Assembly (NCBI RefSeq): GCF_000264765.2
Contig: NZ_CP006664.1
Span: 1,178,001 to 1,242,000 of the forward strand
Reading direction: 5' to 3'
Length of the DNA stretch: 64,000 bases
Origin: Edwardsiella anguillarum ET080813
GTDB lineage: Bacteria; Pseudomonadota; Gammaproteobacteria; Enterobacterales; Enterobacteriaceae
Shown in pieces: positions 18,024 through 28,518 of the stretch. The position numbers were made by a program, and so were the translations under genes. Each line of letters begins with the position of its first letter. Position 1 is the first letter of the stretch. Below the pieces are notes generated by a model. That model ran no database searches, was not told the DNA's origin, and was given only the letters and a program-made list of their open reading frames with translations.

Positions 18024-19141
18024 GCCTGTTTATCCTCATTGCCCGGCTGTTGTTGTTCTGCCTGTGTCAGCTGCTGGTTGTGGCGTTTACGCTGATTGAC
18101 GGCGCTGGCCACCGCATGTACCCCTACCCCGGCGGCGACCACGCCCAACGCGGTCAGGCCGACGGTATCGGCGGTAGAGTGGGTCCCCATCTGAGGGATA
18201 TCGACCACCCGGCTGTAGAACGAACCGCGATCCCAGAAGCCATTCTCTGCGCAGCCCAGGCAGCCGTGGCCGGACTGGATCGGGAAGGATACGCCGTCGT
18301 TCCAGCGGGTGGAGGAGCAGGCGTTATAGGTGGTCGGCCCCTTACAGCCCATCTTATACAGGCAGTATCCCTTACGGGCGGCGTCATCATCCCAGCTCTG
18401 GACGAACTCACCGGCGTCGAAGTGGGCGCGGCGGTAGCACTTATCGTGAATGCGCTGACCGTAGAACATCAGCGGACGCCCCATGCGGTCAACGTCCGGC
18501 AGACGGTCAAAGGTCACCATATAGGTGATGATGGCGCTCATCACGTCCGGAATCGGCGGACAGCCGGGCACTTTGATGATCGGCTTGTCGGTGATCACCT
18601 TGTCGATGGGCGTCGCCTGGGTCGGGTTGGGACGGGCGGCCTGCACGCAGCCCCAGGAGGCGCAGGTCCCCCAGGCGATGATGGCGCTGGCGCCGGCGGC
18701 GGCCTTCTTCAGCTTTTCAATAAACGGACGGCCGCTGCTGATGCAGAACATCCCCTGCTCACCCAGCGGCGGATTTCCCTCCACCGCCAGAATGTACTTG
18801 CCGTGGTAGCGGGTGATGATGTCGTCGAATACCGCCTCGGCCTGCGTCCCGGCCGCCGCCATCAGGGTATCGTCATAATCGAGAGAGATCAGCGAAAGGA
18901 TCACATCCTTGGCCAGCGGATGCGAAGAGCGGATAAAGGATTCGGTACAGCAGGTGCACTCCAGACCGTGGATCCAGACGACCGGAATGCGCGGCTTATT
19001 CTCCAGCGCCCAGGCAATCTTTGGCGCCATCCCTGCCCCCAGCCCCAGCGACGTGGCGGCCAGACTGCAATACTTGAGAAAACTCCGCCGGGTCACTCCC
19101 TGACGGCGCATGGCTTGGTAAAAGGTATCCTCGTTATTCAT
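18020..19141 (-). CDS. hyaA: [NiFe]-hydrogenase-1 small subunit, Tat-exported
   Basis: 373 residues. The twin-arginine signal ([20 protein letters not shown]18-R19) ends near residue 45 (AWA/LENK). The proximal-cluster motif [10 protein letters not shown] and the later [12 protein letters not shown] carry the two extra cysteines typical of the oxygen-tolerant [4Fe-3S] centre. A C-terminal membrane helix ([21 protein letters not shown]) anchors it. The start is ATG 19141 ([13 protein letters not shown]), matching the family; upstream in-frame codons to 19435 are not coding. First gene of the operon hyaABCDEF-rubredoxin. Confidence 0.97.
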
Positions 19142-19924
19142 AACGCACGTCTCTTCTCCTTGCAGCACCGGCGGGTGTACCGGGCGCGTTTGGTCGGCCG
19201 GCGACGTCCCCCAGCAAGGCAAGCCATCGGATCGCGCGCGCGACGCGAACGCGAAAATAACGATCGCCCTTCCCTTTGCACTGGCGTACGCCGTCAGGTG
19301 ATATTGTAAAAAAAGTGTAGCCAGTTTTTTGCTAAAAACAATATAGAAACTATGGATATGTCTTTTTACGATGTTTTCTGAACTATTTACCTCTCTTTCC
19401 AGCGGCGACGCTTTTTTCCCTCTGGCGACAAGCACTTTTCGCCCTATCGTGGCCGTTAGACGCCGCGGGAAATCCCCATTATTCCGCGCCCGCTAGCGCA
19501 TTCGATGTGCATAAATCCCCATCCGCGCGCAAATTACCCACTGCGACAATATCAATAAATGAATGTCACTCATGTAATAATTAATTTATGGACGATAATT
19601 GGCGAATAACAGAGACCGGCGCGAGACACCATCATTCAATTTACTCATTTCCCTTACACGTCAATCAGCTAAATTAACGCAAGCGTTAACGCCGATAAAA
19701 CCGACACGCCGGTAAGCAACGCTACAAAAACGTATTCGAGGATTAATTTTACTAATAGTGATAAATATCACAGTATCCCGCTACCACCAACTTACACTGA
19801 CTCTGTTTTTTAAACGGGGATATGTCCGGCAGCGATTGCCAAACATAGACCGGCAAGGAGTTCAATAATCCACGCTGTGGTGAACTCAGTTGAGTGTATT
19901 TCCTGATAGCGAGAGAGTCGAAGA
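19142..19924. promoter_or_regulatory. Divergent region between hya and the speF operon leader
   Basis: 783 bases with no gene seen other than the speFL leader that follows. The left part should contain the hya promoter; the AT-rich stretch about 19305-19370 is the best candidate. The right part, about 19640-19920, should contain the speF operon promoter and the start of a long 5' leader. I could not assign exact -35/-10 boxes. An antisense open frame at 19752-19952 covers the leader and looks non-coding. Confidence 0.45.
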
Positions 19925-20029
19925 ATGGAAAACAATAATAAAAACTGGCCACACATTCGACGTGTGACCCATATTATGATGGTGGCTCACCGCAGCTGCT
20001 TCGATTTCCACAAGTTCAACGCTCGATAA
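19925..20029 (+). CDS. speFL: Ornithine-sensing leader peptide SpeFL
   Basis: 34-codon ORF with the features of the E. coli SpeFL arrest peptide: it begins MENN, contains PHIRR, THIM and AHR, and ends FDFH..FNAR before TAA; the length of 34 residues is the same. In E. coli, the nascent peptide binds ornithine and stalls the ribosome near its end, which prevents Rho-dependent termination in the leader and lets speF be transcribed. It lies 307 bases upstream of speF, as expected. Differences from E. coli fall mainly between the conserved blocks. It is too short for most gene finders. Family identity is from memory of the E. coli peptide and the match is very strong. Confidence 0.93.
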   Translation: MENNNKNWPHIRRVTHIMMVAHRSCFDFHKFNAR

Positions 20030-20336
20030 CCCTCCTTCCCGACATCCGTCGCGTGCGGATCGTCACGCGCCTAATCCAGCCATACCTGTAATCTGCGCCA
20101 GGCCGCACTCGGCGGGCGTTTGGCTAGAGCTTTGCGTTATCTCTGACAATCCGTAACCGACCCGTGTCGCGACGATGGCTAAGGCCATCAGGCAGCCGTA
20201 TATCCATTGGACAGTAGTGTCTTTACGACAGATTACTGTGCCCTACTGCTGCCATAAAAAATGACTTACAGCGAATTTAATTCAATTAAATTCGACGGGA
20301 TGGGTTTATCCTAAATAATGTAATGAGACCAATAAA
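20030..20336 (+). promoter_or_regulatory. speF leader: candidate Rho-dependent attenuator
   Basis: The 307 bases between speFL and speF start with a C-rich, G-poor segment (CCCTCCTTCCCGACATCC just after the stop), a plausible Rho-loading site. An AT-only hairpin (CGAATTTAATT/AATTAAATTCG, about 20272-20294) lies 43 bases before the speF start. This matches the logic of the E. coli speFL leader. The Rho site is inferred, not seen directly. Confidence 0.6.
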
Positions 20337-22499
20337 ATGGAAACATTAAAAATAGCAATCAGCGACAACGTGATGCAGTGTATTAATACACAGCGAAACC
20401 TTGTGGCACTCGAAAATAGCGATCTTACCGACGTTGCCGCCGTGGTGCTGTCGGTACAGGATGCGCTGGGCGGCGCGCTGGAGAAGGTCGAGCAGAGCGC
20501 CTTTGGCCTGCCCGTCTTTGTCGCCGAGGCGTGCGATCAGCGTCTGCCGGCCGAATATCTGCCGCGCCTGACCGGCGTATTTGCCTGCGGCGATGGCAAT
20601 CAGGACTTTTATGGCAAGCAGCTGGAAAGCGCGGCGCAGAAATATGAGGCCGAGCTGCTGCCGCCGTTTTTCGGCAGCCTGCAGGCCTATGTCCAGCAGG
20701 GCAACGCTGCCTTTGACTGCCCGGGGCATCAGGGCGGGCAGTTCTTCCGCCGCCATCCCACCGGCCGCCGGTTCTTCGACTACTTCGGCGAGGCCCTGTT
20801 CCGCTCCGATCTGTGCAACGCCGACGTCTCCATGGGCGACCTGCTGATCCACGAAGGCGCCCCCTGCGCCGCCCAGCAGCATGCGGCCAAGGTGTTCAAC
20901 GCCGACAAGACCTACTTTGTGCTCAACGGCACCTCCTCCTCCAATAAAGTGGTGCTCAACGCGCTGCTGGCGCCCGGTGATCTGGTCCTCTTTGACCGTA
21001 ATAACCATAAATCTAACCACCACGGCGCATTGATTCAGGCCGGCGCTACGCCGGTCTACCTGGAAACCGCACGCAACCCGTTCGGTTTCATCGGGGGCAT
21101 CGACGCACACTGCTTTGAAGAGAAATACCTGCGTGACCTGGTGCGTGAGGTCGCCCCGGCGCGCGCCGGGGAACAGCGGCCGTTCCGCCTGGCGGTTATC
21201 CAGCTCGGTACCTACGACGGCACTATTTACAATGCCCGCCAGGTGGTGGACAAGATAGGTCACCTGTGCGACTACATCCTGTTCGACTCCGCCTGGGTCG
21301 GCTATGAGCAGTTCATCCCGATGATGAAAGAGTGCTCGCCGCTGCTGCTGGAGCTGAACGAGAACGATCCGGGGATCCTGGTGACCCAGTCGGTGCACAA
21401 ACAGCAGGCCGGCTTCTCCCAGACCTCGCAGATCCACAAGAAAGACCGGCATATCAAGGGGCAGGCGCGCTATGTCAACCATAAACGGCTGAACAACGCC
21501 TTTATGATGCACGCCTCCACCAGCCCGTTCTACCCGCTGTTCGCCGCCCTGGACGTCAACGCCCGCATGCACGCCGGCGACAGCGGCAAGCGCATGTGGA
21601 TGGAGTGCGTCCGGGTGGGCATTGAAACCCGTAAGCTGCTGCTGAAGACCTGCCAGCACATCCGCCCCTTCATCCCGGAGACCGTGGACGGCCGCCCGTG
21701 GGACGCCTTCGACACCGAGGAGATGGCCAACGATCTGCGCTTCTTTAACTTCATCCCCGGCGATCGCTGGCACGCCTTTGAGGGCTATGCCGAGCATCAG
21801 TACTTTGTCGACCCGTGCAAGCTGATGCTGACCACTCCGGGCATCGACGCCAAGAGCGGCGAATACCAGGCCTTTGGGGTGCCGGCGACCATTCTGGCCA
21901 ACTTCCTGCGCGAAAACGGCATCGTGCCGGAGAAATGCGACCTGAACTCGATCCTGTTCCTGCTGACCCCGGCGGAGGACATGGCCAAGATGCAGCATTT
22001 GGTGGCCCAGATCGCCCGCTTCGAGCGCCTGCTGGAGCAGGACGCCCCGCTGGTCGAGGTGCTGCCGTCCCTCTACCGCGCCAACGAGGCGCGCTACCGC
22101 GGCTACACCCTGCGTCAGCTGTGCCAGGAGATGCACGACCTGTACGTCAGCCACGACGTGAAGCAGCTGCAGAAGGAGATGTTCCGCAAGGCGCACTTCC
22201 CACGGGTGGCGATGAACCCGCAGCAGGCCAACATCGCGTTCGTGCGCGGCAACGTCGAGCTGGTCTCCCTGGCGCAGGCCGAAGGCCGCATCGCGGCGGA
22301 AGGGGCACTGCCGTACCCGCCGGGGGTGCTGTGCGTGGTGCCGGGCGAGATCTGGGGCGGCTCGGTGCAGCGCTACTTCCTGGCGCTGGAAGAGGGCATC
22401 AACCTGCTGCCGGGCTTCGCGCCGGAGCTGCAGGGGGTCTACATCCAGCAGGATGAGGATGGTCGCAAGCGCGCCTATGGCTATGTGATCAAGCAGTAA
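20337..22499 (+). CDS. speF: Inducible ornithine decarboxylase
   Basis: 720-residue PLP enzyme of the fold-I acid-inducible decarboxylase family, about the length of E. coli SpeF. It converts ornithine to putrescine and consumes a proton. The PLP lysine is in TQSVHKQQAGFSQTSQIHKK. Other hallmarks are CPGHQGGQFFRRHP, NGTSSSNKVV, DRNNHKSNHHGA and LFDSAWVGYEQF. The N-terminal 110 residues form the response-regulator-like wing domain. It sits behind the speFL leader and ahead of potE. The Shine-Dalgarno is weak (AATGAGACC), consistent with a regulated start. Confidence 0.96.
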   Translation: METLKIAISDNVMQCINTQRNLVALENSDLTDVAAVVLSVQDALGGALEKVEQSAFGLPVFVAEACDQRLPAEYLPRLTGVFACGDGNQDFYGKQLESAAQKYEAELLPPFFGSLQAYVQQGNAAFDCPGHQGGQFFRRHPTGRRFFDYFGEALFRSDLCNADVSMGDLLIHEGAPCAAQQHAAKVFNADKTYFVLNGTSSSNKVVLNALLAPGDLVLFDRNNHKSNHHGALIQAGATPVYLETARNPFGFIGGIDAHCFEEKYLRDLVREVAPARAGEQRPFRLAVIQLGTYDGTIYNARQVVDKIGHLCDYILFDSAWVGYEQFIPMMKECSPLLLELNENDPGILVTQSVHKQQAGFSQTSQIHKKDRHIKGQARYVNHKRLNNAFMMHASTSPFYPLFAALDVNARMHAGDSGKRMWMECVRVGIETRKLLLKTCQHIRPFIPETVDGRPWDAFDTEEMANDLRFFNFIPGDRWHAFEGYAEHQYFVDPCKLMLTTPGIDAKSGEYQAFGVPATILANFLRENGIVPEKCDLNSILFLLTPAEDMAKMQHLVAQIARFERLLEQDAPLVEVLPSLYRANEARYRGYTLRQLCQEMHDLYVSHDVKQLQKEMFRKAHFPRVAMNPQQANIAFVRGNVELVSLAQAEGRIAAEGALPYPPGVLCVVPGEIWGGSVQRYFLALEEGINLLPGFAPELQGVYIQQDEDGRKRAYGYVIKQ

Positions 22500-22535
22500 C
22501 AGCCTTTAATCGACATTACCAATAAAACAAGGTTG

Positions 22536-22584
22536 GCGGGGGGCCGCGGCTCCTGGGTTGCTCCTGCCCGGCTCCCCGCATTTT
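22536..22584 (+). terminator. Intercistronic hairpin between speF and potE
   Basis: GC-rich 11-bp stem (GCGGGGGGCCG paired with CGGCTCCCCGC, one G-T wobble) followed by ATTTTG, in the 99-base gap. It probably attenuates transcription or protects the speF mRNA 3' end rather than fully ending the operon, because potE and cadA have no other obvious promoter. Confidence 0.5.
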
Positions 22585-22598
22585 GAGAGAGAGAAACT

Positions 22599-23930
22599 AT
22601 GAGTACGTCTAGCGGCAATAAGATGGGCGTCGTGCAGTTAACCATACTGACGGCGGTGAACATGATGGGGTCCGGCATCATCATGCTGCCGACCAACCTG
22701 GCTTCCGTGGGGACTATGTCGATACTCTCCTGGCTGGTCACCGCCTTCGGCAGCCTGTGTCTGGCCTACGGTTTTTCCAAGTGCGGGATGTTCAGCCGCA
22801 AGTCCGGCGGGATGGGCGGCTACGCCGAGTACGCCTTCGGCAAGTCCGGCAACTTCATGGCCAACTTCACCTACGCCATCAGCCTGGTGATCGCCAATAT
22901 CGCCATCGCTATCTCCGCCGTCGGCTACGGCGCCGTGCTGTTCGACTGGCATCCGTCGCCGATCATGACCTGTATCGCCACCATCGCCGTCATCTGGCTG
23001 ACCACCGTGGCCAACTTCGGCGGGGCGCGCATCACCGGGCGCATCGGCTCCGTCACCGTCTGGGGGGTGATCATCCCGGTGGTCGGTATCTCCATTCTCG
23101 GCTGGTTCTGGTTTAGCCCGAATATGTACATCCAGGCCTGGAACCCGCATCACCTCTCCTTCGCCTCCGGTCTGGGTGCCTCCATCGCCATGACCCTGTG
23201 GGCCTTCCTGGGGCTGGAGTCCGCCTGCGCCAACTCCGACGCCGTGGAAAACCCGGAGAAAAACATCCCGGTCGCCGTCTTCGGCGGCACCCTGATCTGC
23301 GCCATCGTGTATATCCTGTCCACCAACGTGATGGCCGGCTTCGTCCCCAACATGGATCTGGCCAACTCGACCGCGCCGTTCGGCCTAGCCTTCTCCTACA
23401 TGTTCGACCCGACGGTCGGTAAGATCATCATGGCCCTGATGGTCGTCGCCTGTATCGGCTCCCTGCTGGGCTGGCAGTTCACCGTCGCCCAGGTGTTTAA
23501 GTCCTCTTCCGACATCGGCTACTTCCCGCAGATCTTCGCCAAAGTCACCGCCAAGGATGCGCCGATCGCCGGGATGATCATTCTGGGGGTGGCGCAAACC
23601 ATCCTGTCGCTGATGACCATAAGCCCGTCGCTGAACAATCAGTTCAACTCGCTGGTTAACCTGGCGGTGGTCACCAACCTGATCCCCTACATCCTCTCCA
23701 TGGCGGCGCTGATCCCGATGCACCGCCTGTACAAGATGGCCAACAAGACCCACGTGATGATCCTGCTCACCGCCATCATCGGCACCGTTTACAGCTTCTA
23801 CGCCCTCTACTCCTCCGGCTCCGACGCCATGCTGATGGGGTCACTGGTCACTTTTGCCGGCTGGAGCTGCTATGGCCTGTTCGTGCGGGACAACAACACC
23901 TGCCCGAAAGACAAGATCCAACATGTTTAA
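22599..23930 (+). CDS. potE: Putrescine/ornithine antiporter
   Basis: 443 residues with 12 transmembrane segments of the basic amino acid/polyamine antiporter (APA) family. Diagnostic PotE segments are NKMGVVQLTILTAVNMMGSG, RKSGGMGGYAEYAFGKSGNF, TVANFGGARITG and MTLWAFLGLESACANSDAVE. It swaps external ornithine for internal putrescine across the inner membrane. It is clearly PotE-like, not CadB-like, in sequence. The downstream cadA has no cadB partner in this window, so this antiporter may be the only exchanger encoded in the operon. Confidence 0.95.
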   Translation: MSTSSGNKMGVVQLTILTAVNMMGSGIIMLPTNLASVGTMSILSWLVTAFGSLCLAYGFSKCGMFSRKSGGMGGYAEYAFGKSGNFMANFTYAISLVIANIAIAISAVGYGAVLFDWHPSPIMTCIATIAVIWLTTVANFGGARITGRIGSVTVWGVIIPVVGISILGWFWFSPNMYIQAWNPHHLSFASGLGASIAMTLWAFLGLESACANSDAVENPEKNIPVAVFGGTLICAIVYILSTNVMAGFVPNMDLANSTAPFGLAFSYMFDPTVGKIIMALMVVACIGSLLGWQFTVAQVFKSSSDIGYFPQIFAKVTAKDAPIAGMIILGVAQTILSLMTISPSLNNQFNSLVNLAVVTNLIPYILSMAALIPMHRLYKMANKTHVMILLTAIIGTVYSFYALYSSGSDAMLMGSLVTFAGWSCYGLFVRDNNTCPKDKIQHV

Positions 23931-23945
23931 CTCGGAGAACGTGAA

Positions 23946-26081
23946 ATGAAAGACATTCTGTTCCTGTGTAACCCCTCACCGACCTTCAAGCGGATTCCGC
24001 TGGAGGAGCTGTACGCCCAGCTGCGCGATCGGAGTTTTAGCATCATCGAAAGCACCTCGGTCGACGATCTGCTGGATCTGGTGCGCAATAATGCCCAGTT
24101 GGCCGGGGTGGTCTTCGACTGGGATAGCTACAGTCTGGATCTGTGTAAGCACATCACGGCGCTGAACGAGATGCTGCCGCTGTATGCCTTCGCCAACACC
24201 CACTCCACGCTGGACGTCAGCCTAGGCGACCTGCGCATGAACATTCAGTTCTTTGAGTATACGCTGGGCGGCGCGGCCGACATCGCCGACAAGATCCGCC
24301 AGGGAACCGACGGCTACATCGATGCCATCATGCCGCCGCTGACCAAGGCGCTGTTCCACTACGTCAAAGAGGGCAAATACACCTTCTGTACCCCGGGGCA
24401 CATGGGCGGCACCGCGTTCCAGAAAAGTCCGGCCGGCAGCCTGTTCTATGACTTCTTTGGCGCCAACGCCATGAAGTCCGACATATCCATCTCCGTCTCC
24501 GAGCTGGGCTCCCTGCTGGACCACTCCGGCCCGCACAAAGAGGCGGAAGAGTATATCGCCCGCACCTTCAACGCCGATCGCAGCTACATGGTGACCAACG
24601 GTACCTCCACCGCCAACAAGATCGTCGGCATGTACTCCGCCCCGGCTGGCAGCACCATCCTGATCGACCGTAACTGTCACAAGTCGCTGACCCACCTGAT
24701 GATGATGAGCGACGTTATCCCGATCTACCTGCGGCCGACCCGCAACGCCTACGGCATTCTGGGTGGGATCCCCAAACGCGAGTTCACCCATGACACCATC
24801 GAGGCGCGGGTGAAAAAGACCCCGAACGCCACCTGGCCGGTGCATGCGGTGGTCACCAACTCCACCTACGACGGCCTGTTCTACAACGCGGAGTACATCA
24901 AGAAAACCCTGGAGGTAAAATCCATCCACTTTGACTCCGCCTGGGTGCCCTACACCAACTTCAACCCGATCTACCAGGGACTGTGCGGCATGAGCGGCGA
25001 GCGCGTAGAGGGTAAGGTTATCTACGAAACCCAATCCACCCACAAGCTGCTGGCAGCGTTCTCGCAGGCATCCATGATCCACGTGAAAGGCGACTTCAAC
25101 CAGGAAACCTTTAACGAAGCCTACATGATGCACACCTCCACCTCACCGCACTACGGTATCGTGGCCTCCATCGAAACCGCGGCGGCGATGATGAAGGGCC
25201 ACGCCGGTAAACGCCTGATCGATGACTCTATCGCGCGTGCCATCCGCTTCCGTAAGGAGATCAAGCGCCTGCGCAGCGAATCCGACGGCTGGTTCTTCGA
25301 CGTCTGGCAGCCGGACAATATTGACCAGGTCGCCTGCTGGAAGCTGGACCCGAAAGAGTCCTGGCACGGCTTTAAGGGCATTGATGACAACCACATGTAC
25401 CTCGACCCGATCAAGGTCACCCTGCTGACCCCGGGGATGAACCCGGACGGTACCATGGCGGATGACGGCATTCCGGCCTCCATCGTAGCCAAGTACCTGG
25501 ACGAGCACGGCATCATCGTCGAGAAGACCGGCCCGTACAACCTGCTGTTCCTGTTCAGCATCGGCATCGACAAGACCAAGGCCCTGAGCCTGCTGCGCGC
25601 GCTGACCGACTTCAAACGGGCCTATGACCTGAACCTGCGCGTGAAGAACATGCTACCGTCGCTGTACCGTGAGGATCCGGAGTTCTATGAGCACATGCGG
25701 ATCCAGGAACTGGCCCAAGGCATCCACGCGCTGATCCTGCACCATAACCTGCCGGATCTGATGTACCGCGCCTTCGAGGTGCTGCCGACCATGGTGCTGA
25801 ACCCACACGACGCCTTCCAACAGGAGCTGCGCGGCCAGGCCGAAGAGGTCTACCTCGACGAGATGATCGGCAAGGTCAACGCCAACATGATCCTGCCGTA
25901 CCCGCCGGGCGTGCCGCTGGTGATGCCGGGCGAAATGCTGACGGAGGAGAGCCGGCCGGTGCTGGAGTTCCTGCAGATGCTGTGCGAAATCGGCGCCCAC
26001 TATCCGGGCTTCGAAACCGACATCCACGGCGCCTATCGTCAGGCCGACGGGCGCTATACGGTGAAAGTGCTCAAGCAGTAG
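23946..26081 (+). CDS. cadA: Inducible lysine decarboxylase
   Basis: 711 residues, closely resembling E. coli CadA (715). It converts lysine to cadaverine and CO2 with PLP, consuming a proton. The PLP lysine is in YETQSTHKLLAAFSQASMIH. Other hallmarks are CTPGHMGGTAFQKSPAGS, SDISISVSELGSLLDHSGPH, NGTSTANKIVGMYSAPAGS and the C-terminal ETDIHGAYRQADGRYTVKVL. The start lies 15 bases after the potE stop with a GGAGAACG site, so it is the third gene of the speF operon. cadB and cadC are not adjacent. LdcC is the alternative name; the operon setting favours an inducible, acid-response role. Confidence 0.94.
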   Translation: MKDILFLCNPSPTFKRIPLEELYAQLRDRSFSIIESTSVDDLLDLVRNNAQLAGVVFDWDSYSLDLCKHITALNEMLPLYAFANTHSTLDVSLGDLRMNIQFFEYTLGGAADIADKIRQGTDGYIDAIMPPLTKALFHYVKEGKYTFCTPGHMGGTAFQKSPAGSLFYDFFGANAMKSDISISVSELGSLLDHSGPHKEAEEYIARTFNADRSYMVTNGTSTANKIVGMYSAPAGSTILIDRNCHKSLTHLMMMSDVIPIYLRPTRNAYGILGGIPKREFTHDTIEARVKKTPNATWPVHAVVTNSTYDGLFYNAEYIKKTLEVKSIHFDSAWVPYTNFNPIYQGLCGMSGERVEGKVIYETQSTHKLLAAFSQASMIHVKGDFNQETFNEAYMMHTSTSPHYGIVASIETAAAMMKGHAGKRLIDDSIARAIRFRKEIKRLRSESDGWFFDVWQPDNIDQVACWKLDPKESWHGFKGIDDNHMYLDPIKVTLLTPGMNPDGTMADDGIPASIVAKYLDEHGIIVEKTGPYNLLFLFSIGIDKTKALSLLRALTDFKRAYDLNLRVKNMLPSLYREDPEFYEHMRIQELAQGIHALILHHNLPDLMYRAFEVLPTMVLNPHDAFQQELRGQAEEVYLDEMIGKVNANMILPYPPGVPLVMPGEMLTEESRPVLEFLQMLCEIGAHYPGFETDIHGAYRQADGRYTVKVLKQ

Positions 26082-26571
26082 CGTCTCTTGTGCGGAGCGC
26101 CGCGGTGCCCCGCAGTAACCTTCTGCATTTTCCTGCCTGAAGACGGCTGCGCGTAGGAGGCGCCGCAGCGGCGCCGGGGGAAAGGAAGAGATTCCCCCTC
26201 ACTATTTATCCACCCTTTCTGACGCGACGTGCCGTCGCCGCGTCATCACGCCGTCTCCCGAGCCGCGGCGCAGGCTTTGCCTGCCGCGGCTCATCTCTCC
26301 GGCGTGACATCGGCTGACAAGCCCTGATGCCGACGGACGGACACCGCTAAAGCCTCCTATGCCCTTTACGGTGGCCCCCGTCCGTCGGCACTTTTTTTCC
26401 CCGCCCAAGATCCGGCTGCGCGGTTGGCGCCCCCACAAATAATAAAACATCATTTCAAATTAATTGAATTGGCAGACCAGCATCAGTAGACTAGCCAGAG
26501 ATTCGCGGACGGATTCGCGCCTGCGGCGACAATTCCCGCCCTTCCTTTGGGTTACGATGTAAGGATATGTT
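26082..26571. other. Non-coding gap with a long terminator hairpin
   Basis: 490 bases between cadA and the isomerase gene. No gene is seen. The prominent element is an extended stem-loop: TGCCGACGGACGG (26328-26340) pairs perfectly with CCGTCCGTCGGCA (26378-26390), followed by seven Ts. Within it ACCG/CGGT and AAAG/CTTT can also pair. This should end the speF operon. The last 100 bases are AT-rich and should hold the next promoter. Confidence 0.6.
26328..26397 (+). terminator. Terminator of the speFL-speF-potE-cadA operon
   Basis: 13-bp perfect GC-rich stem with further internal pairing and a T7 tract directly after it. The loop of 37 bases is longer than usual. Confidence 0.75.
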
Positions 26572-27213
26572 GTGAAAATTGCACTCATGATGGAAAACAG
26601 CCAGGCCGCCAAGAACGCGGCGGTGCTGAACGAACTCAACGCCGTGGCACAGGACGGCGGGCACCAGGTCTATAACGTCGGCATGTGCGACGAACAGGAT
26701 CACCATCTGACCTATATTCACCTGGGGATCATGGCCAGCATCCTGCTCAACGCCCGCGCGGTTGACTTTGTGGTCACCGGCTGCGGCACCGGTCAGGGCG
26801 CCCTGCTCTCCCTCAACGCGCACCCCGGCGTCGTCTGCGGCTACTGCATCGATCCGGCCGACGCCTTCCTGTTCGCCCAGATCAATAACGGCAACGCCCT
26901 GTCCCTGCCGTTCGCCAAGGGCTTTGGCTGGGGCGCCGAGCTGAATCTGCGCTATATCTTTGAAAAGGCCTTCGCCGGCGAGCGCGGCCAGGGCTACCCG
27001 CAGGAGCGCCGCGAACCGCAGGTGCGCAACGCGGCGATCCTCAACCGGGTAAAGGCGGCGGTGATCAAGGACAACTATCTGGATACCCTGAACGCTCTCG
27101 ATCGCGATCTGGTCAAAACCGCCGTCGGCGGCGCGCGTTTCCAGCAGTGCCTGTTTGAGCAGGGGCAGGATCCGGCGATTATCGACTATGTTCGCAGCCT
27201 GCTGGCCGCGTAA
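26572..27213 (+). CDS. RpiB/LacA/LacB-family sugar-phosphate isomerase
   Basis: 213 residues starting at GTG 26572 with AAGGAT upstream. The N-terminal domain has the RpiB/LacAB fold signatures: MKIALMMENSQAAKN, VGMCDEQDHHLTYIHLG and the active-site loop VVTGCGTGQGALLSLN (GCGTGxG). The C-terminal 70 residues are an extension beyond classical RpiB (about 150 residues), seen in a larger subfamily. A role in isomerising a five- or six-carbon sugar phosphate is likely, but the substrate is not evident. It is a single gene with its own terminator and no sugar-pathway neighbour. Confidence 0.85.
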   Translation: MKIALMMENSQAAKNAAVLNELNAVAQDGGHQVYNVGMCDEQDHHLTYIHLGIMASILLNARAVDFVVTGCGTGQGALLSLNAHPGVVCGYCIDPADAFLFAQINNGNALSLPFAKGFGWGAELNLRYIFEKAFAGERGQGYPQERREPQVRNAAILNRVKAAVIKDNYLDTLNALDRDLVKTAVGGARFQQCLFEQGQDPAIIDYVRSLLAA

Positions 27214-27229
27214 CCGAGCCGCATCGTCA

Positions 27230-27263
27230 AACAACAGCGCGGCCGATAGGCCGCGCTGTTGTT
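27230..27263. terminator. Terminator between convergent isomerase and yhjX
   Basis: Perfect 15-bp inverted repeat (AACAACAGCGCGGCC with GGCCGCGCTGTTGTT) around a GATA loop, 17 bases after the isomerase stop and 35 before the yhjX stop. Probably bidirectional. Confidence 0.8.
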
Positions 27264-27297
27264 GCTCTCTGAAGCGCAGGGGCGACATCAGGAAGGA

Positions 27298-28518
27298 TTA
27301 CGACTCCAGCGCCAGACGCGCATCGACGTGCGGCAGACGCGGACGCGCCACCCGCAGCGAGCAGCACAGGGTCACCAGCAGCAGGCCGAAAATCAGGTAG
27401 AAGGTAGCCAGGAAACCGCCGAACAGCGCCGCCACGATCGAACCGATGATGCTGCCGATGCCGAAGCCAAGGTAAATCACCCCATAGTTTTTGGTCAGGT
27501 TGTTCAGGCCAAAGAAGTCGCTGACCAGCGACGGATAGACGGTAATGGTGCCGCCGAAGCTGAAGGCGACGCAGGCGACCGCTAGGTAAAACAGCGTCTC
27601 ATTGAGCGGCACGAACAGCAGCAGCGCCATCCCCAGCAGGGTCACCAACTGCGCCAGCGAAATCACCCGGATACGCGGCATCTTGTCCGACAGTACCCCC
27701 AGCGCCAGCCGTCCCCCCAGATTCGCCACGGCGATGATCGCCACCGCCCCGGCGGCGACGCTGCCAGACAAGTGCGCCAGATGCTCACCGATATCTTTGG
27801 CCACCCCGATGACGTACAGCCCGCTCATGCAGGCGGAGAGGAAGATCAGCGCCAACACCCAGTACTGTGGCTGACGCATCGCCTGCGCCAGGGTGAAGTC
27901 CACGCGGCGATCCTGACCGTCCACGGCGGCGGCGCTGTCCTGACGCGGCGGCGCGTCACGCATCAGCAGGCTCCCCAGCAGCACCATCACCATGGCGATC
28001 GCCCCCCAGTAGGTGAAAGCCTGGGACAGCCCGGCGTGGCTCAGCAGCAGGCCGTTGATAAACTTAAAGCCCAGGCTGCCCAGCCCATAGGCGCCGATAG
28101 CGCAGGCGGAGACCAGCCCCTTCCGCTGCGGAAACCACTTCACGCAGTTGGAGAGGGTCAACAGATAGCCGGCGCCGTCCGCCAGCCCCACCAACACCCC
28201 GGCGCACAGGTACAGCATCACCAGGCTGTTGGCGTGGGCGGTCAGAAAAAAGCCGATCCCCAGCGCAATTCCCGCTCCCTGCGTCACCCGGCGCACCCCG
28301 AAACGCTCCTGCAGCTTGCCCGCCAACGATGAGGCCAGCGCCAGCGCCAGACTGAGCAGGCCGAAGGTAAAGGCCACCTGACTGACCGGCTGATCCAGGC
28401 GCTGCGACAGCTGGGCGTTAAACAGGCTCCAGGTATAGACCGAGCCGAGGGCAAACTGGGTGATGACCGTACCGATCAGCGTCAGTACGCGGGTACGTTG
28501 GCGGGAATGCGGATCCAT
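27298..28518 (-). CDS. yhjX: YhjX-like MFS transporter (pyruvate-responsive)
   Basis: 406 residues with 12 transmembrane segments, of the oxalate/formate antiporter (OFA) branch of the MFS. It closely follows E. coli YhjX: TLIGTVITQFALGSVYTWSL, KLQERFGVRRVT, GYLLTLSNCVKWFPQRKG, CMSGLYVIGVAKDI and LNNLTKNYGVIYLGFGIGS. In E. coli, yhjX is the main target of the pyruvate-sensing YpdAB system; here ypdB and ypdA lie directly upstream on the same strand, with three YpdB-like boxes in the 146-base gap. It probably moves a small carboxylate such as pyruvate. Confidence 0.92.
   Translation of the reverse strand: MDPHSRQRTRVLTLIGTVITQFALGSVYTWSLFNAQLSQRLDQPVSQVAFTFGLLSLALALASSLAGKLQERFGVRRVTQGAGIALGIGFFLTAHANSLVMLYLCAGVLVGLADGAGYLLTLSNCVKWFPQRKGLVSACAIGAYGLGSLGFKFINGLLLSHAGLSQAFTYWGAIAMVMVLLGSLLMRDAPPRQDSAAAVDGQDRRVDFTLAQAMRQPQYWVLALIFLSACMSGLYVIGVAKDIGEHLAHLSGSVAAGAVAIIAVANLGGRLALGVLSDKMPRIRVISLAQLVTLLGMALLLFVPLNETLFYLAVACVAFSFGGTITVYPSLVSDFFGLNNLTKNYGVIYLGFGIGSIIGSIVAALFGGFLATFYLIFGLLLVTLCCSLRVARPRLPHVDARLALES

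Follow-up and report, generated by a model that had tools for sequence, protein, structure and literature searches.

A speFL-speF-potE-cadA operon of Edwardsiella anguillarum that may link lysine decarboxylation to ornithine sensing

Organization of the operon

The window analysed here, a 64-kb stretch (64,000 nucleotides; contig NZ_CP006664.1, positions 1,178,001 to 1,242,000) of the Edwardsiella anguillarum ET080813 genome, contains at its positions 19925-26081 the genes speFL, speF, potE and cadA, all on the + strand, an arrangement in which one leader peptide gene precedes both an ornithine decarboxylase (ODC) and a lysine decarboxylase (LDC) gene and which may bring lysine decarboxylation under the control of ornithine. 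The gene speFL (19925-20029) encodes a 34-residue leader peptide, MENNNKNWPHIRRVTHIMMVAHRSCFDFHKFNAR, that matched no NCBIfam model and was identified through its relatives, and the 307-nt leader region between speFL and speF (20030-20336) is the putative site of premature termination. The other three proteins were assigned with NCBIfam models. SpeF (20337-22499) belongs to the inducible ODC family TIGR04301 (1432 bits, cut-off 1310), and PotE (22599-23930) matched TIGR04299 with 701 bits, above the curated equivalog cut-off of 560, and scored 244 bits on the CadB model PRK10435, below the cut-off of 585; in the trees described below it falls into an LDC-linked clade. CadA (23946-26081) matched the inducible-type LDC model NF011929 (1487 bits, cut-off 1056), reached 422 bits with the best ODC model, for which 794 are needed, and retains intact, at 364, the motif STHKLLAAFSQ, the pyridoxal phosphate-lysine motif holding the catalytic lysine of LDC.

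The 15-base gap between potE and cadA (23931-23945) contains a GGAG Shine-Dalgarno sequence (23934-23937) eight bases ahead of the cadA ATG, and the fold across this junction is weak (-15.7 kcal/mol, z -0.92), with 37 of 200 shuffled sequences folding equally well. An intrinsic terminator (26328-26398), consisting of a stem at 26328-26390 and a run of seven T residues at 26392-26398, lies about 250 nt beyond the cadA stop codon and folds strongly (-36.1 kcal/mol, z -6.1; none of 200 shuffles equally good); because a terminator scan did no better than shuffles (6 sites versus 6.8), the terminator call rests on this folding result. A preliminary description, made from the letters of this DNA alone, had noted the common orientation, the 15-base gap, the weak junction hairpin and the strong terminator, and all of these were confirmed. 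The 99-nt gap between speF and potE also folds strongly (-38.8 kcal/mol, z -2.3; 7 of 200 shuffles equally good), with a hairpin at 22536-22579 followed by the tail ATTTTG. Because stems recur in this gap in Hafnia, Serratia and Proteus (none was seen in the short Salmonella gap), we treat the hairpin as an ordinary feature. A search of the whole window with Rfam at gathering thresholds returned no matches.

The preliminary description had named a separate promoter with a CadC-type site directly upstream of cadA as evidence that would speak against its reading. Using as query a conserved stretch of the cadB promoter, which is not a proven CadC site, we found best 20-mer identities of 13 upstream of speFL, 14 in the leader and 12 upstream of cadA, where 15 shuffled controls per region averaged 13.5, 13.3 and 12.8, respectively, so that no cadB-promoter-like sequence stood out at any of the three places.

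Conservation in Edwardsiella

Five Edwardsiella genomes were searched (G000, the window genome, and G001 to G004), and the order speFL-speF-potE-cadA was present in four of them, G000, G002 (E. ictaluri), G003 and G004, each with the 15-base potE-cadA gap and its GGAG. Among 80 SpeF loci kept from a wider search, the best relative of the window SpeF was that of E. ictaluri (97%), and only the E. ictaluri locus had cadA after potE; PotE of at least 60% identity was found at 67 of the 80 loci, in 4 of which the contig ends before the next gene is visible. The ratios of nonsynonymous to synonymous substitution rates (dN/dS) were 0.064-0.085 for the window-type cadA (all six pairs, four genomes), 0.011-0.071 for the window-type Edwardsiella potE (all ten pairs) and 0.015-0.024 for the CadC-linked cadA (all six pairs). 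The window-type cadA is therefore under purifying selection, though less tightly than the main CadC-linked enzyme.

Two of the assemblies call for comment. In G003 most of residues 27-472 of SpeF appeared to be missing from both copies, and this candidate deletion was rejected as an artefact; each copy (L123, L124) is interrupted by 25 N, a gap left by the assembly in a near-identical repeat. In G001 the operon is seen in pieces, since speFL, adjacent to hybO, is on a different contig, which breaks off within speF. The first 78 residues encoded by the G001 speF behind hybO are only 50% identical to the window SpeF, and the other speF copy of this genome reaches 72% (L256, 2447-2680; L255, 1-234).

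The SpeFL leader

Of 77 SpeFL peptides found, 10 were dropped because of their length or start, leaving 67 full-length leaders that represent 29 distinct peptides and include a few duplicate genome records. Nine residues (H10, I11, R12, R13, H16, M18, M19, R23 and F26) were invariant in all 67, and all nine are present in the window peptide, which is 94-100% identical to the leaders of G002, G003 and G004. By its position upstream of speF and its full set of invariant residues, the window peptide is recognizable as a SpeFL leader. At position 34 the E. ictaluri peptide (L018, 7584-7685) has Q instead of R, a replacement seen in two of the 67 rows, both from the same genome (L018, L125).

SpeFL is one of the few arrest peptides known to respond to a free metabolite. 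Ornithine is described as stalling the ribosome before the speFL stop codon, with effects on Rho and on mRNA structure (PMC7815308, PMC8429421, each cited for the part of its text available), and the discussion of TnaC in PMC8429421 offers a comparison.

An LDC-linked branch of PotE

We first sampled the family at one genome for each of 60 genera. At the thresholds applied, 15 of these 60 genomes contained PotE and 23 contained LDC, and a potE followed directly by cadA was seen in the window genome and in a single additional genus, g10. We then used a profile model, A1, built from six proteins of the two groups, on 392 sampled family genomes. The 108 listed hits fell by score into a high class of 14 (842-939 bits) and a low class of 94 that reached at most 771 bits. 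The 14 high scorers came from the five Edwardsiella genomes and from three genomes each of the genera g10, g236 and g177; two more genomes in the sample, G445 of g10 and G670 of g236, had PotE of the ordinary class only. In 13 of these 14 loci cadA lies directly downstream of potE, the exception being G001, and the next 16 loci by A1 score, which were all the further ones with sequence available, each had speF on the upstream side and lacked cadA over 1.5 kb. The 14 PotE proteins formed a single clade (support 100/99) separate from the ordinary speF-linked PotE, and a tree joining the cadA-linked and the ordinary Edwardsiella potE in one group was rejected by the approximately unbiased test (p-AU 0.0014). 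Judged by these profiles and trees, the window PotE is a PotE-family protein and not the ordinary partner of speF.

The genomic context of the clade, including an extra lysyl-tRNA synthetase-like gene beside potE-cadA outside Edwardsiella (see Neighbouring genes), points to lysine, and E. coli PotE is reported to carry cadaverine in both directions (PMC6659618). No CadB was detected (E at most 1e-60) in the three g10 and three g236 genomes carrying potE-cadA, in which CadB queries gave best matches of 228 bits or none, compared with 697-963 bits for true CadB. CadB is present in all three g177 genomes, accompanied by cadC and cadA in both genomes examined for them, and PotE is therefore not the sole antiporter candidate in that genus. 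A search upstream of potE in g10 for a leader resembling SpeFL found no similar small open reading frame (ORF), one 9-residue match occurring elsewhere in locus L172.

At positions 150, 234, 284, 296 and 329 all 14 clade proteins differ from at least 93 of the 94 ordinary PotE, counts from which 10 divergent PotE-like rows were left out. Two of the clade residues, A284 and V296, are those fixed in 21 of 21 CadB; lying 8 before and 4 after W292, they are probably located on the W292 helix face. The replacements concerned, S to A and I to V, are mild.

Other ornithine and lysine loci in the genome

The window genome (4.33 Mb, three contigs) has three LDC genes, namely the window cadA, a copy at 2.57 Mb (85% identity) that is part of a full cadC-cadB-cadA locus, and a copy at 2.06 Mb (78% identity) that forms a cadB-cadA pair. 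A third CadB stands alone at 3.94 Mb, flanked by potC-like and potD-like genes (L017, 3075-4409); the primers for "1884" given in PMC8438976 match this lone paralogue with 0-1 mismatches. A genome search for cadB and cadC, proposed in the preliminary description together with the remark that neither was nearby, thus yielded three CadB and one CadC, all at least about 850 kb from the window operon. A second speFL-speF-potE operon, without cadA, was located at 2.04 Mb, and its speFL, SpeF and PotE are 88%, 98% and 72% identical to the window copies. Because the genome keeps an ordinary speFL-speF-potE operon as well as cadC-cadB-cadA, the window operon represents an additional circuit in a cell that also possesses another lysine system.

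The two speF copies are identical in DNA over about 2.2 kb (window positions about 20440-22660), from about codon 35 and including the speF-potE gap. Outside this stretch the two operons differ, with identities of about 45-73% in the leaders and about 59-87% over most of potE. In G004, too, the two speF copies share 96-100% identity along most of their length. These patterns of identity are most likely the result of gene conversion between the copies.

Published data on the orthologous cadA come from E. tarda TX01, for which three LDC and three antiporter genes are listed (PMC8438976, of which only a part is drawn on here). In that strain cadBA depends strongly on CadC at low pH, and ETAE_3006, the orthologue of the window cadA, and ETAE_1884 were reported to be acid-induced, less than cadBA, and were stated to form no operon. 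Residual late LDC activity was reported in cadBA mutants, for which ETAE_3006 and ETAE_1884 were suggested to compensate. The "3006" primers of the same report have no mismatches to the G003 copy of the window-type cadA and one each to the window copy. Induction was followed by reverse transcription quantitative PCR in LB at pH 5.5 with 5 mM lysine, and the available part of the report mentions neither ornithine nor speF nor speFL.

Proposed mechanism and alternatives

Taken together, these data are explained best, and we think with somewhat better than even probability, by a composite operon in which an ornithine-sensing leader and ODC (speFL-speF) are followed by a lysine-type potE-cadA pair, providing ornithine-gated and CadC-independent lysine decarboxylation. 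One transcript would most likely begin upstream of speFL. In Edwardsiella, ornithine would presumably stall the ribosome at the end of speFL, the stalling would relieve premature termination in the leader, and transcription would continue through speF and potE into cadA and stop at the 26.4-kb terminator. CadA would turn lysine into cadaverine, and the PotE paralogue would exchange cadaverine for lysine and, probably, putrescine for ornithine as well. Lysine decarboxylation would thereby gain an ornithine-requiring input, with CadC governing the separate cadBA operon. The suggestion in the preliminary description that LDC falls under SpeFL control holds for the arrangement, since one leader upstream of both decarboxylases is kept in four of the five Edwardsiella genomes; the ornithine control of cadA itself is what we infer from it. 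More tentatively, and with a probability that we put somewhat below even, this PotE branch may have replaced CadB as lysine antiporter, being the sole candidate in two genera in which no CadB was detected, and in Edwardsiella such a PotE, together with a CadA, may have come under an ornithine-sensing nascent peptide, with lysine decarboxylation then licensed by ornithine without CadC.

Several observations weigh against a composite, ornithine-gated operon. In G001 potE lies directly before the next gene, without cadA, and no cadA remnant was found between the two. Whether cadA was lost from G001 or gained by the others would depend on the species tree, and the data point both ways: the PotE trees pair G001 with G004 (87/96 and 85/96), favouring loss, whereas by the distances of the ordinary potE G001 is closer to G000 than to G004, pointing against loss. 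The 13 of 14 potE-cadA loci belong to one clade in a sample and so are not independent events, and long branches meet in the PotE trees, as a warning of the tree software indicated. At 29 of 31 pocket-region positions, located by AdiC numbering, the window PotE has ordinary PotE residues; it departs from them at V97, which occurs in 7 of the 94 ordinary proteins too, and at V296, where the residue is that of CadB. Lysine exchange is thus not shown by the pocket. The C-rich signal for Rho entry is not above shuffles in the window speFL-speF leader (C-over-G excess, p 0.30), in a test that has little power, with p values of 0.03, 0.04 and 0.84 in the leaders of three relatives, and that is uninformative because the known Salmonella leader, used as control, does not pass it either (p 0.67). 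Read-through could be lowered by the strong hairpin between speF and potE, and the silence of the promoter scan before cadA says little, because the scan (one site in 19000-27500 versus 3.3 in shuffles) also misses any site upstream of speFL.

The CadA trees, in addition, are compatible with either source of cadA, arrival together with potE or derivation from the cadCBA locus of the same cell. Outside Edwardsiella, the cadA genes of the potE-cadA pairs group together (100/99), and placing the Edwardsiella window-type cadA with them was not rejected (p-AU 0.44 and 0.53); the trees place it with the Edwardsiella cadCBA copy at supports of 52/86 and 64/75. A shared origin with the cadA of the other pairs, supported at 89 in a first quick tree, was dropped by the more careful trees and is neither shown nor rejected; one decarboxylase row (L175) was removed before the quick tree, and five and nine before the later ones. 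In view of these trees we claim a shared PotE lineage and not a shared two-gene module.

One alternative is that an acid-responsive promoter within potE drives most of the expression of cadA, with the leader playing a minor part and no true ornithine control. The acid induction of the orthologue, recorded with lysine and with ornithine not named in the available part of the report (PMC8438976), would suit such a promoter, as would damping of read-through by the speF-potE hairpin. However, Salmonella SpeF has itself been described as inducible at low pH (PMC3143133), so that acid induction does not discriminate and fits read-through or an own promoter alike. In addition, the promoter scan, a weak test, found no sigma-70-like site in the last part of potE or near the potE-cadA junction; third-position changes in potE codons 391-420 (6, 7 and 5, against 2-14, 2-6 and 4-12 in other codon windows) are not unusually low; and the 300 bp upstream of cadA are not AT-rich (43%, compared with 61% in the cadC-cadB intergenic region). 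We regard a separate promoter as the main source of cadA transcripts as rather unlikely. That cadA is a recent chance passenger behind potE, of no regulatory meaning, seems very improbable to us. Its absence from one of five Edwardsiella genomes and the presence of two other LDC genes beside cadB in the same cell would agree with a passenger, and if G001 branched first a single later gain would be as simple as a loss; but four of five genomes have cadA, at an unchanged distance from potE and with dN/dS under 0.1, and the same potE clade adjoins cadA in three other genera.

A further possibility, to which we give close to an even chance and which differs from the composite operon in degree and is compatible with it, is that the window PotE is a generalist exchanging both ornithine/putrescine and lysine/cadaverine, like the lactobacillar transporter. 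The PotE-like pocket, the position of the gene with both speF and cadA, and the retention of a clade potE without cadA in G001 all agree with generalism, as does the report that E. coli PotE carries cadaverine in both directions (PMC6659618, cited for its available part). Against it, the clade PotE of g10 and g236 accompanies LDC in genomes where no CadB was detected, and two of the five fixed clade changes match CadB-invariant residues, with which generalism would still be compatible. The preliminary description had proposed that PotE serves two exchange reactions or that a CadB lies elsewhere; the second part was borne out by the three CadB copies, but the framing as alternatives does not hold, as the window PotE comes from the LDC-linked clade.

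Relation to known systems and significance

The window operon resembles the enterobacterial speFL-speF-potE operons (E. coli, Salmonella) in having a leader with the invariant residues a few hundred nucleotides before speF, then potE, and in the stem in the speF-potE gap, seen in three of four outside examples folded; it differs in its appended cadA and in a PotE from another clade. With cadC-cadB-cadA of E. coli and Edwardsiella (ETAE_0756/0757; PMC8438976, in the part available) it shares an inducible-type LDC beside a basic amino acid antiporter, but it lacks CadB, CadC and a cadB-promoter-like stretch, has an antiporter of the PotE type and would be expected to be controlled by a leader peptide. 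In gene content it is like the lactobacillar three-component lysine/ornithine system, in which one ODC, one LDC and one PotE-type transporter occur together, contiguously in P. wasatchensis; however, no SpeFL leader is mentioned in the available part of that description and the LDC there is annotated as ODC, whereas the window CadA matches the inducible LDC model. At the level of titles and abstract openings, no earlier description of a speFL-speF-potE-cadA operon was found in the literature.

If our interpretation is correct, a metabolite-sensing arrest peptide has been connected to a reaction different from the one whose substrate it senses, one acid-resistance reaction is controlled by the substrate of another, and Edwardsiella has a CadC-independent source of cadaverine. 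The interpretation given in the preliminary description is plausible but incomplete, and the most useful addition to it is the LDC-linked PotE clade, which turns the statement that PotE may serve two reactions into a concrete claim, allows the basis of CadB-like versus PotE-like specificity to be tested on a small number of residue differences, and cautions against equating the annotation PotE with an ornithine transporter.

Neighbouring genes

The direct neighbours of the window operon are hybO and an RpiB-like gene. In the other three genera a lysyl-tRNA synthetase-like gene and a small gene are divergent to potE-cadA in all eight g10, g236 and g177 loci with ORFs listed; three of these synthetases scored 709-720 bits (cut-off 427.6), and three of the small genes, which are CI-like, narrowly passed a helix-turn-helix cut-off. 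A lysyl-tRNA synthetase gene beside LDC and an antiporter is also known from lysS-argP-cadB-cadA of Morganella morganii (PMC8638253, cited for its available part), in which, however, the antiporter is CadB. The potE-cadA pair, the helix-turn-helix gene and the extra lysyl-tRNA synthetase may represent a lysine-linked island in these three genera (L172, L249, L252 and L254).

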